NCBI GenBank assembly: GCA_037893245.1
Contig: JBAIAA010000396.1
Coordinates: forward strand, 1,240,001 to 1,304,000
Direction: 5' to 3'
From: Crossaster papposus
Taxonomy: Eukaryota; Echinodermata; Asteroidea; Velatida; Solasteridae
DNA: 64,000 nt
Below, one piece after another: positions 27,852 to 41,017 of this stretch. The position numbers and the translations under genes were made by a program. Within the stretch, counting starts at the first letter, position 1; each line of letters begins with the position of its first letter. The notes under the pieces were generated by a model. The model did not search any database. It saw only the letters and a program-made list of their open reading frames with translations, and was not told where the DNA came from.

Positions 27852-28062
27852 CTGTAAAATGGCGAAGAGAGAAAATAGAACATGTTGTTACGTCTTCAGC
27901 CATGAACAGAATGACGTGGCGGGCGAAGCCCGCGAAATTTAAAGAAAGTAGAGGGCGCAACGCAAGTGATTTGAATAACAATACATGCATCAAAGTAGAC
28001 AGGCCAATACCGAAATAAAAAGTGGGGGGTTAATATATGACTCCTTTGTTATACTTGTCACA
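27852..28062 (-). repeat. 3' LTR remnant (5' portion of the LTR)
   Basis: On the minus strand it starts TGTGACAAGTATAAC directly after a polypurine tract and runs 211 bp to TTTTACAG. The last 61 bp (27852-27912) are identical to 40957-41017 in the other LTR. Beyond them the sequence switches to the unassigned flank, so the 3' part of this LTR (its AATAAA and GTCACA end) is missing. The GGCGGGCGAAGCCCGC inverted repeat at about 27,917-27,932 lies inside it. Confidence 0.85.
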
Positions 28063-28508: not shown

Positions 28509-29781
28509 TCATGGGTTACCGTGTTTTTGGGACAGTATTTTTAGTGCTGCCTTTTTCCTGAACGATGCCATTTTTGGACTTCTCCACTTTGCCCACAACC
28601 GTTTTCCAGCAGCCAGCTTCAATGTATATGCTAGCGATGATCTCTCATCCTGGACACCTTGCTGTCTGGTTTGCCCGAACTTTGTGTACGTGAGCCTGTC
28701 TATCGGTTTCGAATCTCTTTTTGGTCTGAGCCTGGGAAGATAATCTTCTTCCACTTCAGACGGAGACTCCAAAACTTCAGTTGCGACAGAATCGGTAAAT
28801 TGTACACTTGGCTCATTCAGCTGCGATGGTGTCTCTGGAAAGCCATGTTGGTCCCGTTGATTGTTTTCAGGAGTTACTTCAGTCGAGACAGAATCAGCAA
28901 ACTGTACTATTGGCTCATTCAGCTGCGATGGTGTCTCTGGAAAGCTATTTTGGTCCCGTTGGTTTTTTTCAGGAGGGTATCCGGTCACTTCGGCAGCTTG
29001 CCATCTCGAATGCTCGTTGGCAGAGTCATGTTTATTATTGGTTAATTCTTCAGTTCTTTGTAGCGCCGGAAGAAAGATCAAATCTGGATCTTCATCGCTA
29101 GAGTTTTCTTGCTCTGTCGTCTCCTTTTCTGTGAGCTGGATTTTCTCTGGTTGGGAAAGGTCTTGCTGTGCAACCTCTTTTGGACCAGTAGCCCGTTTGT
29201 TGTCCGGAGTTTCAATTGGTAGAAACATACATGGTGTAAGGAGGTTGCGGTGCAGAGTTCGTTGCTTGCCGCTATTGGCTGAAGAGACAACATAGACTGG
29301 TAGGTTTGGTCGTTTGGAGATGGTTGGGATTCCCATCTATCGGCGAGTTTCTGGGTTCCTTTGAGGTGCTTATTTTGCTTAACTAGTACTCTATCACCTG
29401 GATGTAGAGGAGATGGTTTTGTGCCTCTGTCGTACAGACGCTTTTGCTTAGCCTGTTCTCTGGAAGTGTATTCTTTTGCTTTCTCGTACGCTGAGGAAAG
29501 ACCTTCAGGGAATGTTTCCACAAATGCTTCGTACGACGGTGTTTCGGTGGAATTATCTTTCAAGCCAAACATCAGGTCAACAGGAAGGTTAGGATGCCGT
29601 CCAAACATTAAGTAGAATGGGGCAAAGCCGGTCGATTCATGGCGAGTTGCATTATATGCGTGCGCCATCTGGCCAACATATTCTTTCAAATTCTTCTTCT
29701 TGCTGGGATCCATAGAGCCTAACATGTTTAGCAGGGTATGATTAAATCTTTCGGTTTGTCCATTTCCCAGAGGGTGGTATG
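28509..29781 (-). pseudogene. Gypsy integrase, C-terminal part (end of core, GPY/F-like region, tail)
   Basis: Continues the integrase after the transposon insertion. It begins with TPYHPLGNGQTERFN, which carries the third catalytic acid (Glu, codon about 29750-29752). Next comes NATRHESTGFAPFYLMFGR, typical of the end of the Gypsy integrase core, and then GDRVLVKQNKHLKG, which opens the GPY/F-like module. A frameshift near 29,320 moves the reading frame; the rest (NLPVYVVSS onward) lies in the second frame to a stop at 28509. The hydrophilic tail contains a direct duplication of 34 codons (28770-28973, FPETPSQLNEP in both copies) and ends with KILSQKHGNP. It cannot make a working protein as it stands. 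Confidence 0.88.
28770..28973 (-). repeat. 102-bp tandem duplication inside the integrase tail
   Basis: Two adjacent 34-codon units share FPETPSQLNEP, VQF.DSV and TEV. They differ at several residues (QRDQNS/QRDQHG, PIVQFA/PSVQFT). The unit stays in frame and was probably tolerated in an active ancestor, because this acidic Gln/Glu/Pro-rich tail is poorly conserved among Gypsy elements. Confidence 0.85.
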
Positions 29782-29789
29782 GTGTGATG
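29782..29789. repeat. target site duplication of outer W, left
   Basis: GTGTGATG abuts the W end TAGTCTTGG. Compared with the right copy GGGTGGTG it has two substitutions, and the right copy preserves the expected integrase codons, so the left copy has mutated since insertion. Confidence 0.7.
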
Positions 29790-29791
29790 TA

Positions 29792-29807
29792 GTCTTGGTT
29801 CCAAGAC
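29792..29807. repeat. terminal hairpin of outer W (A end)
   Basis: GTCTTGG TT CCAAGAC: a perfect 7-bp stem around a 2-nt centre, starting 2 bp inside the transposon. The same hairpin ends the inner copy at 35076-35091. Confidence 0.8.
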
Positions 29808-30275
29808 CTTCGTGTTGTTTATTCCGCGATGACACAAACCACCGATGTTATAGAGGGCGCTATCTACAGACGAATCGCACCCGCGAACTCAGTGGACTCA
29901 CTCGAAGGTCTTGGACAAGTTGGCACACAGGGGGCGTGGTCAGACTATTGTAATATATGCATTATTCATATCACGTGATAATGATGGACGGTTATAGGCA
30001 AATTCGTGCGAGGGTTACGCAAAACGTTACACGTACACGCCGCGATTGACCCGGCCGTGATGTGCATGTACTATACTGTACATGTATTCGCATGTTTGTA
30101 TCACTGTGGACGGAGACATGGCTTCCCTTACCGAACATGACATGTTCTCGTGTACAAAATGGTTAGAAAGTCGAGCACTTTTTTCAAAATGCTCCCATTT
30201 TAACCACAATTATTTTCCTGGGTTGAAATTTCCAACCAATATACCCTATATTATACCCTAACCCAAACACTAACC

Positions 30276-31328
30276 TTATTTCTCCATGCCATTACGAGTT
30301 TCTCCCATTTAAAACTCTCTCAAAATTCCACATCCTTTTCAGAGAGAAGATTAATGGGAACGTGTCTCCTTTGGGGATAAGTATCAGTCTAATCACTCAA
30401 TGCCTCCTAAAACATGCCAGTTGTGATATGACAACAGTCAACCAACGTCACCAACAGGTGGTCAGTAGGGAAATGCCCAACTGACCAAGCTCGGACTGGG
30501 TCAGCTAAGGTCAAGCTATAAGTACTCCTCCGAGAGTTTCTGCAGAAACTAGAGGGCAATTATTATAATAAGTATAGCCCACACTGTACACATGTACATG
30601 TACTGTATATGTATGTAGGTCATAACATGATATGGTATGAGATACAGGTAGGATTTGTGCACACACTTTTTGTTCATAGTTAAATGATGCAGGTTTCCCT
30701 CCAGTGTACATGTAGTAGGCCTACTGAGTCTATATTCAGTATATTTAATTATGCAAGCACATGTAACACATTAAGCAGTTTTGCTTACATGTACAACGAT
30801 ATTTTAGCAACATTTGGCAAAATGTTAAGTTTGAAGGGCTGTGAGGCAATTTCATAGGTATTTGAAACAGGAACCTGGGTCACTGATGAAAGTTAAGAAA
30901 TTGTAGCTTCACGTGTTGTTTATTTGCACTCAACTAAGTTAACCAATAAAAGCAAACACTAACACAAGTTTATTAACAGAAGGCCTAATGGTGGAGTTTA
31001 AAAAAAAAGCAGCCTAAACACGGAAAACATCAAAGCATATGCAAATAAAATGTTCAATGTTGAAGTGGAAACTTTAAATAAATTATTACTACATGCAATT
31101 GTACAAAGATGCTCTGAATTCCCAATTTCAAACATTTTTCTAAGATTGTGTTTTTTTCTTAAACGATTAAATTAACTTGTTTGCATTTTGAATTTGTAAA
31201 AATCACATACATGTACGTCTGGCTGTGCATTAATTGGAGCTGGATGTGCCAGTTAATATGCACTAATCCATGTTATAATATCCGAAATGAATTCCTACAA
31301 AAAAAGCAATTCGGCAAACTGTTAACAT
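30276..31328. other. ~1.05-kb segment present in outer W, absent from inner W
   Basis: Outer W reads CCAAACACTAACC, then this segment, then CCTAACCCTAGC. Inner W (reverse complement, about 34,608-34,634) has only about 12 bp (CTAAACCCACAT) between the same words. The segment is AT-rich, with no open frame I recognise and no terminal inverted repeats or clear duplicated flank. Its borders lie in CTAACCC-like direct repeats, so deletion from the inner copy is at least as likely as insertion into the outer one. Confidence 0.65.
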
Positions 31329-31624
31329 CCTAACCCTAGCTTTTGAGTAATTTAAGTACAATCCAAAAATCTAATTCGTGAAATTCCTAATGGAGACCTA
31401 AATATAAATCACCCTTTGGAGACATTTTTACTCCCATTGTCCCCATTGTGTTCACGTCTCCAGAGGTACCGTATTTCGCACCATACAGTACATGTACATA
31501 TGTACATGTACATGTACTTTACATGTACATTGACACAGCAAATCATAGCTGCCCCGGCGTTTATTTGTGACTGCGGGTGAATTTGTTGATTGAAACAACT
31601 TTGCTCTATGGTGAAAACCTCCAA

Positions 31625-32206
31625 AGCCCCAGTCCCACCGAAAGCCGGATACGCTACGGATCAACCCGGATGCACTACGGTTCATATCCGGGGTCATCCG
31701 GAGTGGAACCTTAGTCAAACCGTGATAATCCGGGACTATCCGGGACTATCCGGGGCCATGCATCCGGGACCATCCGGGGACATCCGTAGTGAGTCCGGGA
31801 AGTCGAGCGTCACCCTGGATCAGCATCTAGCATCCGGAGTGATCCGGGGCCATCCGGGAAGGGAGAGGGGGGCGGCGAAGAAACGTAGTGAAACCGTAGT
31901 GCGATCGTGATGATCCCTAGTGTATCCGGGATAAACCGTAGCGTAACCGTAGTGTAACCGTGTTTATCCGGGATGAAACGGGAGTTGGTTCCACTACGGT
32001 TCCACTACGGATCACCACGGATTCACTACGGTGTCACCACGGTATTTCCGGGATGAACCGTAGTGTATCCGGGGTCATCCGGGGTGAACCGTGGCACATC
32101 CAGGATGAACCGTGGCGCATATCCGTAGTGAAACCGTGGCGGAACCGTAGTGAATCCGTGACCATCCGGGGTCATGGGGGAAAAACAGGCTTGAACCGGG
32201 GTGATC
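31625..32206 (-). mobile_element. element E in outer W, first part (interrupted)
   Basis: Starts with the terminal inverted repeat AGCCCCAGTCCCACCGAAAG and continues with dense CCGTAGTG and TCCGGG motifs. The inner W transposon interrupts it after 32206; the remainder resumes at 35102-35284. It lacks the 92-bp MITE found in the inner copy of E: around 31706-31721 it reads GGAACCTTAGTCAAAC without interruption. Confidence 0.75.
32199..32206. repeat. target site duplication of inner W, left
   Basis: GGGTGATC, repeated without change at 35094-35101 on the other side of the inner W element. Confidence 0.85.
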
Positions 32207-32209
32207 CTA

Positions 32210-32223
32210 GTCTAGTCCTAGAC
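32210..32223. repeat. terminal hairpin of inner W (C end)
   Basis: GTCTAG TC CTAGAC: a perfect 6-bp stem with a 2-nt centre, 3 bp inside the transposon end. Its counterpart in the outer copy is at 36466-36479. Confidence 0.8.
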
Positions 32224-32920
32224 CCTTGTGTTATTTCGGCGCCCACGTACGCGCGCAGCGCAGATTCGTTAACGCTGTCTCTTTTTCAAATCCCGACTTC
32301 GTGTGCGTTGGTGTCTCACGCATGCGTAGTTTACATAATGCAGCTGGATCCATATTCGCACTGGAGCCGACGTTTGACAAACGTACATGATTTTGGATTC
32401 CCCAATGGGTCTAGCACTAGTTGGCAATCAATTGTTAACTTTAACCTTAGTTTTCGACGAATCTCCCTCGCTTTTCCGAGGGATCCAATCAGCGACCGAG
32501 TTTGAGCCTCATCATGAATTATTCATTATACACAAATATAAGATACTGTGTGTGTGTACACAAGACAGTGTACATGTACGTACAACATTGTACATGTACA
32601 ATGTACATGTATGTGATGGTGACTGTATGCACGTGCATTGCGCGAAATGTGCAGACTTTTAATAGCATTGTATATGTACGTGAGTCCGATCTTCCGGGGC
32701 ATGGCAGTGCAAGCTAGCTACAGCCACCGGTACCGTACCGCGGGTCTGCCCGCTGCAGCATCGCTATGTTATGGTGCTTCAGCGCGGTGCGTTTTTTTGT
32801 ATTCCAGTGTATCGAACGTACAGTACGTCAGTATTAGCCTCAAATCTAGTGAGGTCGTGCTTCATTTTGGCAAACAGTTAATTACCTGCAAAAACTACCT
32901 TTCCCTGAAATAAAAGGGGA
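32224..32920. other. unique C segment of inner W
   Basis: Matches 35781-36465 in reverse complement with scattered substitutions. It holds CATGTACA-rich palindromic simple sequence around 32,560-32,615. Short frames exist here, but none resembles a known protein and none is conserved in length between the two W copies. Confidence 0.6.
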
Positions 32921-33458
32921 AATTTATGGTGGCTCTGCATGGAGGGACATAAAAGTCGTGAATTTGTTTGCGAGTAGTTGTGAAACTATTCGCGACTTGT
33001 CGTGAATTTATTCGCGACTGGTTGTTAATATTTTTGCGACTGTTCGTGAATATTTTTGCGACTAGTCGTATAATTCGTGATTATTAGTGAATATTTTCGC
33101 TACTAGTCGCGAATTTTTTTCGCGACTATTGAAAATATTGACGACTAGTCGCGAAAAAATATTTACGACTAGTCGCAAAAAACAAGTCGTAACAAATTCA
33201 GGACTCAAATTTGCGACTTGTCGTTAATTTATTTGCAACTGGTCGTAAATATTTTTGCAACTAGTCGCAAATAATTTCACAACTAGTCGTGACAAAATTC
33301 GCGACTAGTCGCACATTTTGTCACGACTAGTTGTGGAATTATTTGCGACTAGTTGCACAAATATTTACGACCAGTCGCAAATAAATTAACGACAAGTCGC
33401 AAATTTGTCGCGAAAATGTTCACGACTTTTGATATCCCTCAGGGCCACCATATAAATT
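32921..33458. mobile_element. palindromic CGACTAGTCG MITE in inner W
   Basis: A 538-bp foldback with imperfect terminal inverted repeats. The left end reads AATTTATGGTGGC and AAAGTCGTGAA; the right end reads TTCACGACTTTT and GCCACCATATAAATT. The interior is a run of variants of GCGACTAGTCG spaced about 16 bp apart with AT-rich spacers. A near-perfect internal palindrome is centred at about 33,305 on GCGACTAGTCGC. It has no coding potential. The matching copy in outer W (35288-35780) is about 45 bp shorter because it lacks the palindrome centre. Confidence 0.8.
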
Positions 33459-33461
33459 AGT

Positions 33462-34309
33462 AGCCCCAGTCCCACTGAAGCCGCGGATATGCTACGGATC
33501 GCCCCGGATCGCCCCGGATGAAACTACGTTTGATCCGGGGTGGTCTGGGAAGGCAATCAAAAACAAAGTGACATGTTCCCCGATCCTACTACGGTTCTAC
33601 TACGGTTTGACTACGGTTCTGCCACGAATGGGCCCGGATCACCCCGGTTCAAGCCTGTTTTTCCCCCATGACCCCGGATGGTCACGGATTCACTACGGTT
33701 CCGCCACGTTTCACTACGGATGCGCCACGGTTCACCCCGGATGACCCCGGATACACTACGGTTCATCCCGGTTCATCCGGGAAATACCGTGGTGACACCG
33801 TAGTGAATCCGTGGTGATCCGTAGTGGAACCGTAGTGGAACCGTAGTGGAACCAACTCCCGTTTCATCCCGGATAAACACGGTTACACTACGGTTACGCT
33901 ACGGTTTATCCCGGATACACTAGGGATCATCACGATCGCACTACGGTTTCACTACGGTTCTTCGCCGCCCCCTTCTCCCTTCCCGGATGGCCCCGGATCA
34001 CTCCGGATGCTAGATGCTGATCCAGGGTGACGCTCGACTTCCCGGACTCACTACGGATGTCCCCGGATGGTCCCGGATGCATGGCCCCGGATAGTCCCGG
34101 ATAGTCCCGGATTATCACGGTTTGACTAACCCAGCTAACACGTTTTAGGAACGTTCCAAGAACGTTAAAGCGTTTTGGGAACGTTCTTAAAACGTTCCTA
34201 AAGCGTTATGTGTTAGCTGGGAAGGTTCCACTCCGAATGACCCCGGATATGAACCGTAGTGCATCCGGGTTGATCCGTAGCGTATCCGGCTTTCGGTGGG
34301 ACTGGGGCT
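33462..34309. mobile_element. element E in inner W, complete, with terminal inverted repeats
   Basis: An 848-bp element with ends AGCCCCAGTCCCACTGAAGCC and the reverse complement of AGCCCCAGTCCCACCGAAAG; inverted identity extends about 40 bp into GGATANGCTACGGATC. The body is a degenerate minisatellite of CCGTAGTG / CACTACGG and TCCGGG / CCCGGA words, with no reading frame of interest. The 92-bp MITE at 34130-34221 sits inside. I found no convincing target duplication at its outer ends. Because E lies at the same place in both W copies, it was in W before the copies separated. Confidence 0.75.
34130..34221. mobile_element. 92-bp palindromic MITE (CCCAGCTAACAC ends) inside E
   Basis: Ends CCCAGCTAACAC and GTGTTAGCTGGG are perfect 12-bp inverted repeats. 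The interior is built of AACGTTCC / GGAACGTT and AAAGCGTT words and folds back almost completely. It is flanked by AA on both sides. The homologous site in outer W (31706-31721) is empty and carries a single AA, which supports a 2-bp duplication and insertion after the W copies diverged. It is far too small to be autonomous. Confidence 0.85.
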
Positions 34310-35075
34310 TTGGAGGTTTTCACCATAGAGCAAAGTTGTTTCAATCAACAAATTCACCCGCAGTCACAAATAAACGCCGGGGCAGCTATGATTTGCTGTG
34401 TCAATGTACATGTAAAGTACATGTACATGTACATGTGTACATGTACTGTATGGTGCGAAATACGGTACCTCTGGAGACGTGAACACAATGGGGGCAATGG
34501 GAGTAAAAAGGTCTCCAACGGGTGATTTATATTTAGGTCTCCATTAGGAATTTCACGAATTAGATTTGTGGATTGTACTTAAATTACTCAAAAGCTAGGG
34601 TTAGGATGTGGGTTTAGGGTTAGTGTTTGGGTTAGGTATATTATACTGGTTGGAAATTTCAACCCAGGAAAATAATTGTGGTTAAAATGGGAGCATTTTG
34701 AAAAAAGTGCTCGACTTTCTAACCATTTTGTACACGAGAACATGTCATGTTCGGTAAGGGAAGCCATGTCTCCGTCCACAGTGATACAAAAATGCGAATA
34801 CATGTACAGTATAGTACATGCACATCACGGCCGGGTCAATCGCGGCGTGTAACGTTTTGCGTAACCCTCGCACGAATTTGCCTATAACCGTCTATCATTA
34901 TCACGTGATATGAATAATGCATATATTACAATAGTCTGACCACGCCCCCTGTGTGCCAACTTGTCCAAGACCTTCGAGTGAGTCCACTGAGTTCGCGGGT
35001 GCGATTCGTCTGTAGATAGCGCCCTCTATAACATCGGTGGTTTGTGTCAGTGATCGCGGAATAAACAACACGAAG
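34310..35075. other. unique A segment of inner W
   Basis: Reverse complement of most of 29,808-31,624 in outer W, minus the 1.05-kb segment. It contains ACATGTAC-rich simple sequence (about 34,404-34,446) and a short GGTTTAGGGTTAGTG stretch near 34,611. No gene is recognised. Confidence 0.6.
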
Positions 35076-35091
35076 GTCTTGGAACCAAGAC
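35076..35091. repeat. terminal hairpin of inner W (A end)
   Basis: GTCTTGG AA CCAAGAC: a perfect 7-bp stem, 2 bp inside the transposon end and the counterpart of 29792-29807. Confidence 0.8.
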
Positions 35092-35093
35092 TA

Positions 35094-35101
35094 GGGTGAT
35101 C
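35094..35101. repeat. target site duplication of inner W, right
   Basis: GGGTGATC, identical to 32199-32206. The interrupted element E continues directly after it. Confidence 0.85.
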
Positions 35102-35284
35102 CGGGCCCATTCGTGGCAGAACCGTAGTCAAACCGTAGTAGAACCGTAGTAGGATCGGGGAACATGTCACTTTGTTTTTGATTGCCTTCCCGGACCACCC
35201 CGGATCAAACGTAGTTTCATCCGGGGTCATCCGGGGCGATCCGGGGCGATCCGTAGCATATCCGGCTTCAGTGGGACTGGGGCT
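35102..35284 (-). mobile_element. element E in outer W, second part
   Basis: Resumes the split E and ends with GTGGGACTGGGGCT, the inverted partner of the terminus at 31625. The two parts together are about 765 bp, against about 754 bp for the inner E once its small MITE is discounted. Confidence 0.75.
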
Positions 35285-35287
35285 ACT

Positions 35288-35780
35288 AATTTATATGGTG
35301 GCCCTGAGGGATATCAAAAGTCGTGAACATTTTCGCGACAAATTTGCGACTTGTCGTTAATTTATTTGCGACTGGTCGTAAATATTTTTGCAACTAGTCG
35401 CAAATAATTTCACAACTAGTTGTGAAATTATTTGCGACTAGTTGCAAAAATATTTACGACCAGTCGCAAATAAATTAACGACAAGTCGCAAATTTGAGTC
35501 CTAAATTGTTTACGACTTGTTTTTTGAGACTAGTCGTAAATATTTTTTCGCGAATAGTCGTCAATATTTTCAATAGTCGCGAAAAGAATTCGCGACTAGT
35601 AGCGAAAATATTCACTAATAATCACGAATTATACGACTAGTCGCAAAAATATTCACGAACAGTCGCAAAAATATTAACAACCAGTCGCGAATAAATTCAC
35701 GACAAGTCGCGAATAGTTTCACAACTACTCGCAAACAAATTCACGACTTTTATGTCCATCCATGCAGAGCCACCATAAAT
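35288..35780. mobile_element. palindromic CGACTAGTCG MITE in outer W
   Basis: A 493-bp reverse-complement copy of 32921-33458. At the palindrome centre it reads CACAACTAGTTGTG, where the inner copy has an additional ~45 bp made of further CGACTAGTCG words. The ends are AATTTATATGGTGGC and the complement of ATTTATGGTGGC. Confidence 0.8.
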
Positions 35781-36465
35781 GTCCCCTTTTATTTCAGGGA
35801 AAGGTACTTTTTGCAGGTAATTAACTGTTTGCCAAAATGAAGCACGACCTCACTAGATTTGAGGCTAATACTGACGTACTGTACGTTCGATACACTGGAA
35901 TACAAAAAAACGCACCGCGCTGAAGCACCATAACATAGCGATGCTGCAGCGGGCAGACCCGCGGTACGGTACCGGTGGCTGTAGCTAGCTTGCACTGCCA
36001 TGCCCCGGAAGATCGGACACACGTACATGTACAATGCTTTTAAAAGTCTGCACATTTCGCGCAATGCACGTGCATACAGTCACCATCACATACATGTACA
36101 TTGTACATGTACAATGTTGTACATGTACACTGTCTTGTGTACACACACACAGTATCTTATATTTGTGTATAATGAATAATTCATGATGAGGCTCAAACTC
36201 GGTCGCTGATTGGATCCCTCGGAAAAGCGAGGGAGATTCGTCGGAAACTAAGGTTAAAGTTAACAATTGATTGCCAACTAGTGCTAGACCCATTGGGGAA
36301 TCCAAAATCATGTACGTTTGTCAAACGTCGGCTCCAGTGCGAGTATGGATCCAGCTGCATTATGTAAACTACGCATGCGTGAGACACCAACGCACACGAA
36401 GTCGGGATTTGAAAAAGAGACAGCGTTAACGAATCTGCGCGCGTGGGCGCCGAAATAACACAAGG

Positions 36466-36479
36466 GTCTAGGACTAGAC
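36466..36479. repeat. terminal hairpin of outer W (C end)
   Basis: GTCTAG GA CTAGAC: a perfect 6-bp stem located 3 bp inside the right end of the outer transposon. Confidence 0.8.
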
Positions 36480-36482
36480 TAG

Positions 36483-36490
36483 GGGTGGTG
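36483..36490. repeat. target site duplication of outer W, right
   Basis: GGGTGGTG; it retains the coding sense of the integrase (minus-strand frame SHTTP). Its partner is 29782-29789. Confidence 0.7.
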
Positions 36491-36909
36491 TGGCTCCTTT
36501 TAATTCCAGATACTTGGCACAGCTCTCTGATTAGTTGACTTTCAAAATTGCGGCCTTGATCGGCATGGATCCTCACAGGAAACCCATAATGTTGGATGAA
36601 ATTCTTCCATAAGATTTTGGCGACTGTCTCAGCTTTCTGGTCGAGAGATCGAAATGCCTGGGCGTACTTTGTAAAATGGTCAGTGACTACCAGGATGTTT
36701 TCAAAACCACCTTTGGATCTTTCAAGCTTGAGAAAATCGATGCACACCAACTCTAATGGTTCACTAGTGGAGATGTTGACAAGTGGGACCCTTGTTTTCG
36801 TGGGTTGCGTCTTTCTTAGGCAACATCTCTTGCAGCTGAGGCAGTACTGCTTGACGTCAGCAGACATTTTTGGCCAGTAAAACCTGCTCCTCACCATTTC
36901 AAGGGTTCT
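36483..36909 (-). pseudogene. Gypsy integrase, core part with first two catalytic Asp
   Basis: Minus-strand frame. The CxxC half of the HHCC zinc finger (CLSC) is followed by the RNase-H-fold core. CIDFLKL carries the first Asp (codon about 36736-36738) and HADQGRNFES the second (about 36559-36561). The frame runs into the outer W transposon at 36482, between the second Asp and the catalytic Glu. The Glu lies on the far side at about 29,750, at the spacing expected for a D,D-35-E integrase. The HxxxxH half of the finger lies upstream, separated by an in-frame TAA at 36910-36912. Confidence 0.9.
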
Positions 36910-40877: not shown

Positions 40878-41017
40878 TGTGACCCTTGTTTGTTTATCGG
40901 GCCAAGAAGGAAATGGGGATTTTGCCTGACTTGCCTTTTGGAATGTGGTTTATTGTCTGTAAAATGGCGAAGAGAGAAAATAGAACATGTTGTTACGTCT
41001 TCAGCCATGAACAGAAT
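40878..41017 (-). repeat. 5' LTR remnant (3' portion of the LTR)
   Basis: 140 bp on the minus strand, ending CAAGGGTCACA immediately before the primer binding site and containing AATAAA after TTTTACAG. It shares only 40957-41017 (61 bp) with the 3' LTR remnant; upstream of that the sequence becomes unassigned flank. The first ~150 bp of the LTR, including TGTGAC, is missing here. Confidence 0.85.

Follow-up and report, generated by a model that had tools for sequence, protein, structure and literature searches.

The stretch of DNA that we analysed (the window, 64,000 nucleotides) consists mostly of a 217-bp satellite with 374-bp variants, which occupies positions 1-27662 and 41437-64000 and is interrupted by a minus-strand Gypsy-type element whose reverse transcriptase, RNase H and integrase domains are all recognisable. 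One anchor in the satellite that contains an ATG (MAANED...) occurs at 130 places, and a frame of 46 aa from that ATG is the commonest length, being found at 42 of the 130. A perfect 61-bp direct repeat flanks the coding region of the Gypsy element (27852-27912 and 40957-41017), and no longer terminal repeat at these sites was reported at E 1e-4; in addition, an open frame downstream of the integrase carries a tandem duplication of ~102 bp at 28774-28975 (89% identity). Within the integrase itself lies a block, at 29790-36482, made up of two copies of a non-coding DNA transposon, here called W: one is split by the other, which lies in the reverse orientation. The features of this block and of its target are collected in Table 1.

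Table 1. Features of the nested W block and of the integrase around it, in window coordinates.
Feature	Position	Strand	Evidence and remarks
Outer (older) W, interrupted	29790..36481	-	TAGTCT/AGACTA ends; alignment to inner copy
Inner (younger) W, 2886 bp, opposite orientation	32208..35093	+	Alignment, end scan
Inner target duplication GGGTGATCC, left copy	32199..32207	+	Exact 9/9
Inner target duplication GGGTGATCC, right copy	35094..35102	+	Exact 9/9
Unoccupied equivalent of inner target, within X module of inner copy	33636..33644	-	Alignment, motif search
X module, inner W	33462..34309	+	Inverted ends AGCCCCAGTCCCAC..., arrays of 10-11 bp units
X module, outer W, interrupted	31625-35284		Contains inner W
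Y module, inner W	32927..33450	+	Inverted ends TGGTGGC..., 22-bp palindromic array, TA on either side
Z, 92-bp palindromic MITE-like insertion CCCAGCTAACAC...	34130..34221	+	AA on either side; inner copy only
Outer-only segment, ~1.04 kb	30275..31324	+	Inner copy has ~10 bp there; longest frame 73 aa
Outer target duplication, copy 1	29781..29789	+	7/9 with copy 2; end scan; integrase register
Outer target duplication, copy 2	36482..36490	+	End scan; integrase register
Gypsy integrase, first half (H2C2 zinc finger and rve)	36484..36909	-	Pfam rve 4.1e-12, Integrase_H2C2 2.4e-10, from a frame that runs on into W; Ty3 7q5b 1118-1258
Gypsy integrase, second half	29081..29788	-	rve_3 1.3e-5 (25.3 bits, below the cut-off of 26.5; frame starts in W); Ty3 7q5b residues 1263-1396

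An earlier note on this DNA had proposed that a transposon was inserted into an inverted copy of itself, and had called for a self-comparison of the region. That comparison yields 102 inverted pairs; among the best 25 of the 102 are arms of 778 nt (95% identity), 388 nt (98%), 333 nt (96%), 322 nt (99%), 210 nt (99%) and 204 nt (100%). When the inner copy is reverse-complemented and each half of the outer copy is aligned to it separately, the two copies are collinear throughout, from the TAGTCT terminus up to the break and from there to the opposite terminus, and the outer W measures 3797 bp once the inner copy and one copy of its target have been subtracted. Taking both pieces together, the copies are 98.8% identical, with 33 mismatches (16 transitions and 17 transversions) in 2708 aligned columns. 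The alignment also has 16 gap rows, two of which (738 and 303 nt) look like a single event divided by the aligner, while those of 10, 10, 11 and 44 nt fall in arrays and correspond to approximately whole units; one gap of 23 nt is likewise in an array. Both termini of W carry TAGTCT as part of an imperfect inverted repeat, which scores 37 against a mean of 18 (sd 3.3, max 31) in 200 single-base shuffles, and each end folds into a small hairpin when RNA parameters are used.

We turn first to the inner insertion. On the plus strand of 29790-36482, GGGTGATCC is found at 32199 and 35094 only, directly bordering the inner copy, and its complement occurs just once, at 33636, which is the matching place in the inner copy, where the X module reads GAACCGGGGTGATCCGGGCCC and is uninterrupted. 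Since the target is present once at the empty site and twice around the insert, the sequence gives a direct view of an insertion that duplicated its target, and the X module of the outer W is what the inner copy entered. A scan of 64 combinations of ends for the inner copy found its longest exact duplication, 9 bp, at 32208/35093, and the chance of a given 9/9 match is 3.8e-6. The earlier note had placed this insertion in an 'element E' of W, and the location stands, with the amendment that E looks like an inverted-repeat module in its own right (our X) within W. It could of course be asked whether an inverted duplication or a fold-back rearrangement might have built the block instead, given its large inverted arms, but against it stand the completeness of the element, whose two ends fall at the junctions, the exact duplication of the target, and the second copy, in which the site is unoccupied; we regard it as very improbable.

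At the outer insertion the duplication reads, in the orientation of W, CACCACCCC/CATCACACC, with 7/9 matches (6/8 if 8 bp are counted), and of 24 combinations of ends compared at length 9 none exceeded 7, a value that was equalled by 29789/36485 and 29791/36482; a 10-bp reading at 29791/36481 gives 8 matches. Taken alone, this duplication is weak, lying as it does in a G/T-rich site. The integrase register, however, furnishes independent support for it, because the two halves of the protein adjoin in Ty3 coordinates, and the earlier note's identification of the Gypsy integrase as the outer target is upheld. Residue 139 of the first half is the last to be aligned to Ty3 1118-1258 and is followed by three residues (HTT), the second half starts with ITP and its residue 4 aligns at Ty3 1263, and the number of residues missing between the halves, counted on from the edges of the Ty3 alignments, is 0. 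The overlap TT(P)/ITP represents the duplicated target.

How long is the duplication that W makes? The earlier note gave 8 bp, and while target duplications are indeed found at both insertions, their size is probably 9 bp. In the 9-bp reading W has TAGTCT...AGACTA at its two ends and the inner duplication remains exact, whereas the 8-bp reading leaves an unpaired C at one end. The base before TAGTCTAG is C in both copies, and so is the ninth base across; if that C belonged to W, the matches at the ninth base of both insertions would be due to chance (1 in 16). Our own estimate from the flanking bases, with the element's base taken as unknown beforehand, is a likelihood ratio of ~4 for 9 bp. 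The boundary of W accordingly moves one base inward on the TAGTCTAG side, so that 29790 and 35093 are retained from the earlier description and 32207 and 36482 become 32208 and 36481. We also considered, and rejected, a duplication of 7 bp in which each end would be CTAGTCT, since the outer copy, in the orientation of W, has C and not G after AGACTA. The same nesting history can also be told with W as an element that makes 8-bp duplications, its 5' end being CTAGTCT and its 3' end AGACTA. Duplications of 8 bp are typical of hAT- or P-like elements, and hAT requires them. The matches are then 8/8 at the inner site and 6/8 at the outer, and the C before TAGTCTAG in both copies is consistent with such an end, but the unequal ends and the coincidence at the ninth base count against this version, which we think unlikely and which in any case bears on the family of W and not on the nesting. 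For hAT in particular, 8 bp would fit W only with unequal ends, and 9 bp fits better.

As for what W contains, it has inverted ends, a target duplication and no transposase, in keeping with a non-autonomous inverted-repeat DNA transposon. The coding frames of the inner W do not exceed what chance would give, its longest open frame being 118 aa as against a median of 122 in 200 approximately dinucleotide-preserving shuffles. The absence of a recognisable transposase, already remarked upon in the earlier note, was borne out by a Pfam scan of all 18 inner-W frames of at least 60 aa, which found no transposase (Mutator or hAT) in any of them and no match at E 1 in 17; the exception, the frame at 32334-32522, has three weak and unrelated matches, the best with E 0.089 and all below the cut-off. 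In the outer halves the scan covered one of the nine listed frames of the outer-only segment, and the frame at 31942-32502, which passes from the outer copy into the inner. The hexamer TACATG, counted on a single strand, occurs 3.8 times per kb in the inner W and 0.83 times per kb over the whole window, a difference of between 4- and 5-fold.

W is also composite, in that two further inverted-repeat modules with arrays of short units, X and Y, lie inside it. Against 200 single-base shuffles, the end alignment of X scores 79 (mean 19, sd 3.6, max 38) and that of Y scores 78 (mean 21, sd 3.9, max 39), scores that are raised by the extension of both alignments into the arrays. No duplication was seen flanking X. 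Near 31711 the outer copy shows the site of Z without the insertion, and because this site is intact and lacks the AA duplication, a gain in the inner lineage is favoured over a loss. The outer-only segment has no direct repeat and no inverted ends, its one internal inverted pair being of 14 nt, and because inverted ends are lacking, the 1-kb difference in length seems likelier to have arisen when the lineage of the inner copy lost internal sequence and acquired a short filler. These differences are also relevant to the question of whether the assembly has joined two haplotypes or loci, which two near-identical copies lying together where satellite is abundant, known from assembly sequence only, might bring to mind. 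Copies that differ by 33 substitutions, by array lengths, by a 92-bp insertion and by a 1-kb segment, and that meet in a precise target duplication at the inner junctions, speak against an artefact, and we consider it very improbable.

Within the window there are two copies of W with the same ends, one inside the other, and no third copy was found at E 1 when the inner W, and likewise the outer-only segment, was compared with the remainder of the window. A self-comparison of the entire window gave 1374 matches, of which the 250 listed all start in the satellite. Further afield, the terminal 19-mer of W had no match in prokaryote genomes and was found at two places in viral contigs (L001 and L002), where the flanks are unlike W and show a single stretch read from its two strands; both places were set aside as chance. 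A pattern for the X ends, which itself covers two of the four X ends of the window, had no match in viral contigs. No paper could be tied to W in a search of the literature, a form of searching that suits sequence poorly. With no transposase or third copy found, the size of the duplication, at two insertions, is the sole guide to the superfamily of W. A duplication of 9 bp makes us lean, with no claim to proof, towards a Mutator-like element rather than hAT, and a Mutator-like transposase is thus our leading, if tentative, candidate for the mover of W, at somewhat short of even odds.

Several described systems are instructive here. The available text on Tetris presents a foldback element with duplications of 8-10 bp and no transposase, which its authors assign to the Mutator superfamily, and W resembles it in being non-autonomous and modular, in having no conserved frame, in its internal tandem repeats and in a duplication size within 8-10 bp (PMC4079207). 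The likeness is one of description only, however, since the terminal inverted repeat of W is short and imperfect with no long foldback arm, and its arrays, unlike those of Tetris, sit in the internal modules X and Y (PMC4079207). For the MULEs of maize and rice, the portion of the study at hand uses a duplication of 8-11 bp as a criterion, together with homology to transposase and an inverted-repeat identity of >75%, and analyses the nested insertions inside these elements (PMC3903597). The duplications of W (9 bp and exact at the inner site, 7/9 at the outer) lie within that range, but W differs from the MULE set in having no transposase, and that portion of the account of nested insertions makes no mention of self-nesting (PMC3903597). 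Merlin elements, as far as the relevant extract describes them, combine 8- or 9-bp duplications with conserved 5'-GG termini; the size is shared by W, whereas its TAGTCT ends start with TA (PMC8101967).

Putting this together, we consider nested transposition to be the explanation of the block, with a probability of about 90%. That there were two insertions, in which order and orientation they took place, and what the inner site looks like when unoccupied can all be seen in the DNA, which bears out the earlier note on the nesting, its orientation and its sequence of events, and the layers were laid down in the order satellite, Gypsy, outer W, inner W. As to mechanism, W would be a non-autonomous DNA transposon with inverted repeats, mobilised by cut-and-paste, presumably in trans by a transposase encoded elsewhere. 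A first copy entered the integrase gene of the Gypsy element that lies in the 217-bp satellite, duplicating its target, and later a second, near-identical copy entered X of the first in reverse orientation, duplicating GGGTGATCC. A bolder proposal, that W represents an undescribed family (TAGTCT ends, 9-bp duplications) which gathers array modules such as X and Y, whose G-rich units then become preferred targets of W, strikes us as a long shot.

That transposons can nest within their own copies is generally known, and such events are everyday in repeat-rich, eukaryote-like DNA. The nesting of W in W is an event of an ordinary kind, and what is unusual is the clarity with which it has been preserved: all four layers, from the satellite through the Gypsy element to the two copies of W, can be resolved in time, and the empty site is kept in the inserted copy itself. 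The locus also provides the likely ends of W and the size of its duplication, which are precisely what a hunt for the autonomous partner needs.
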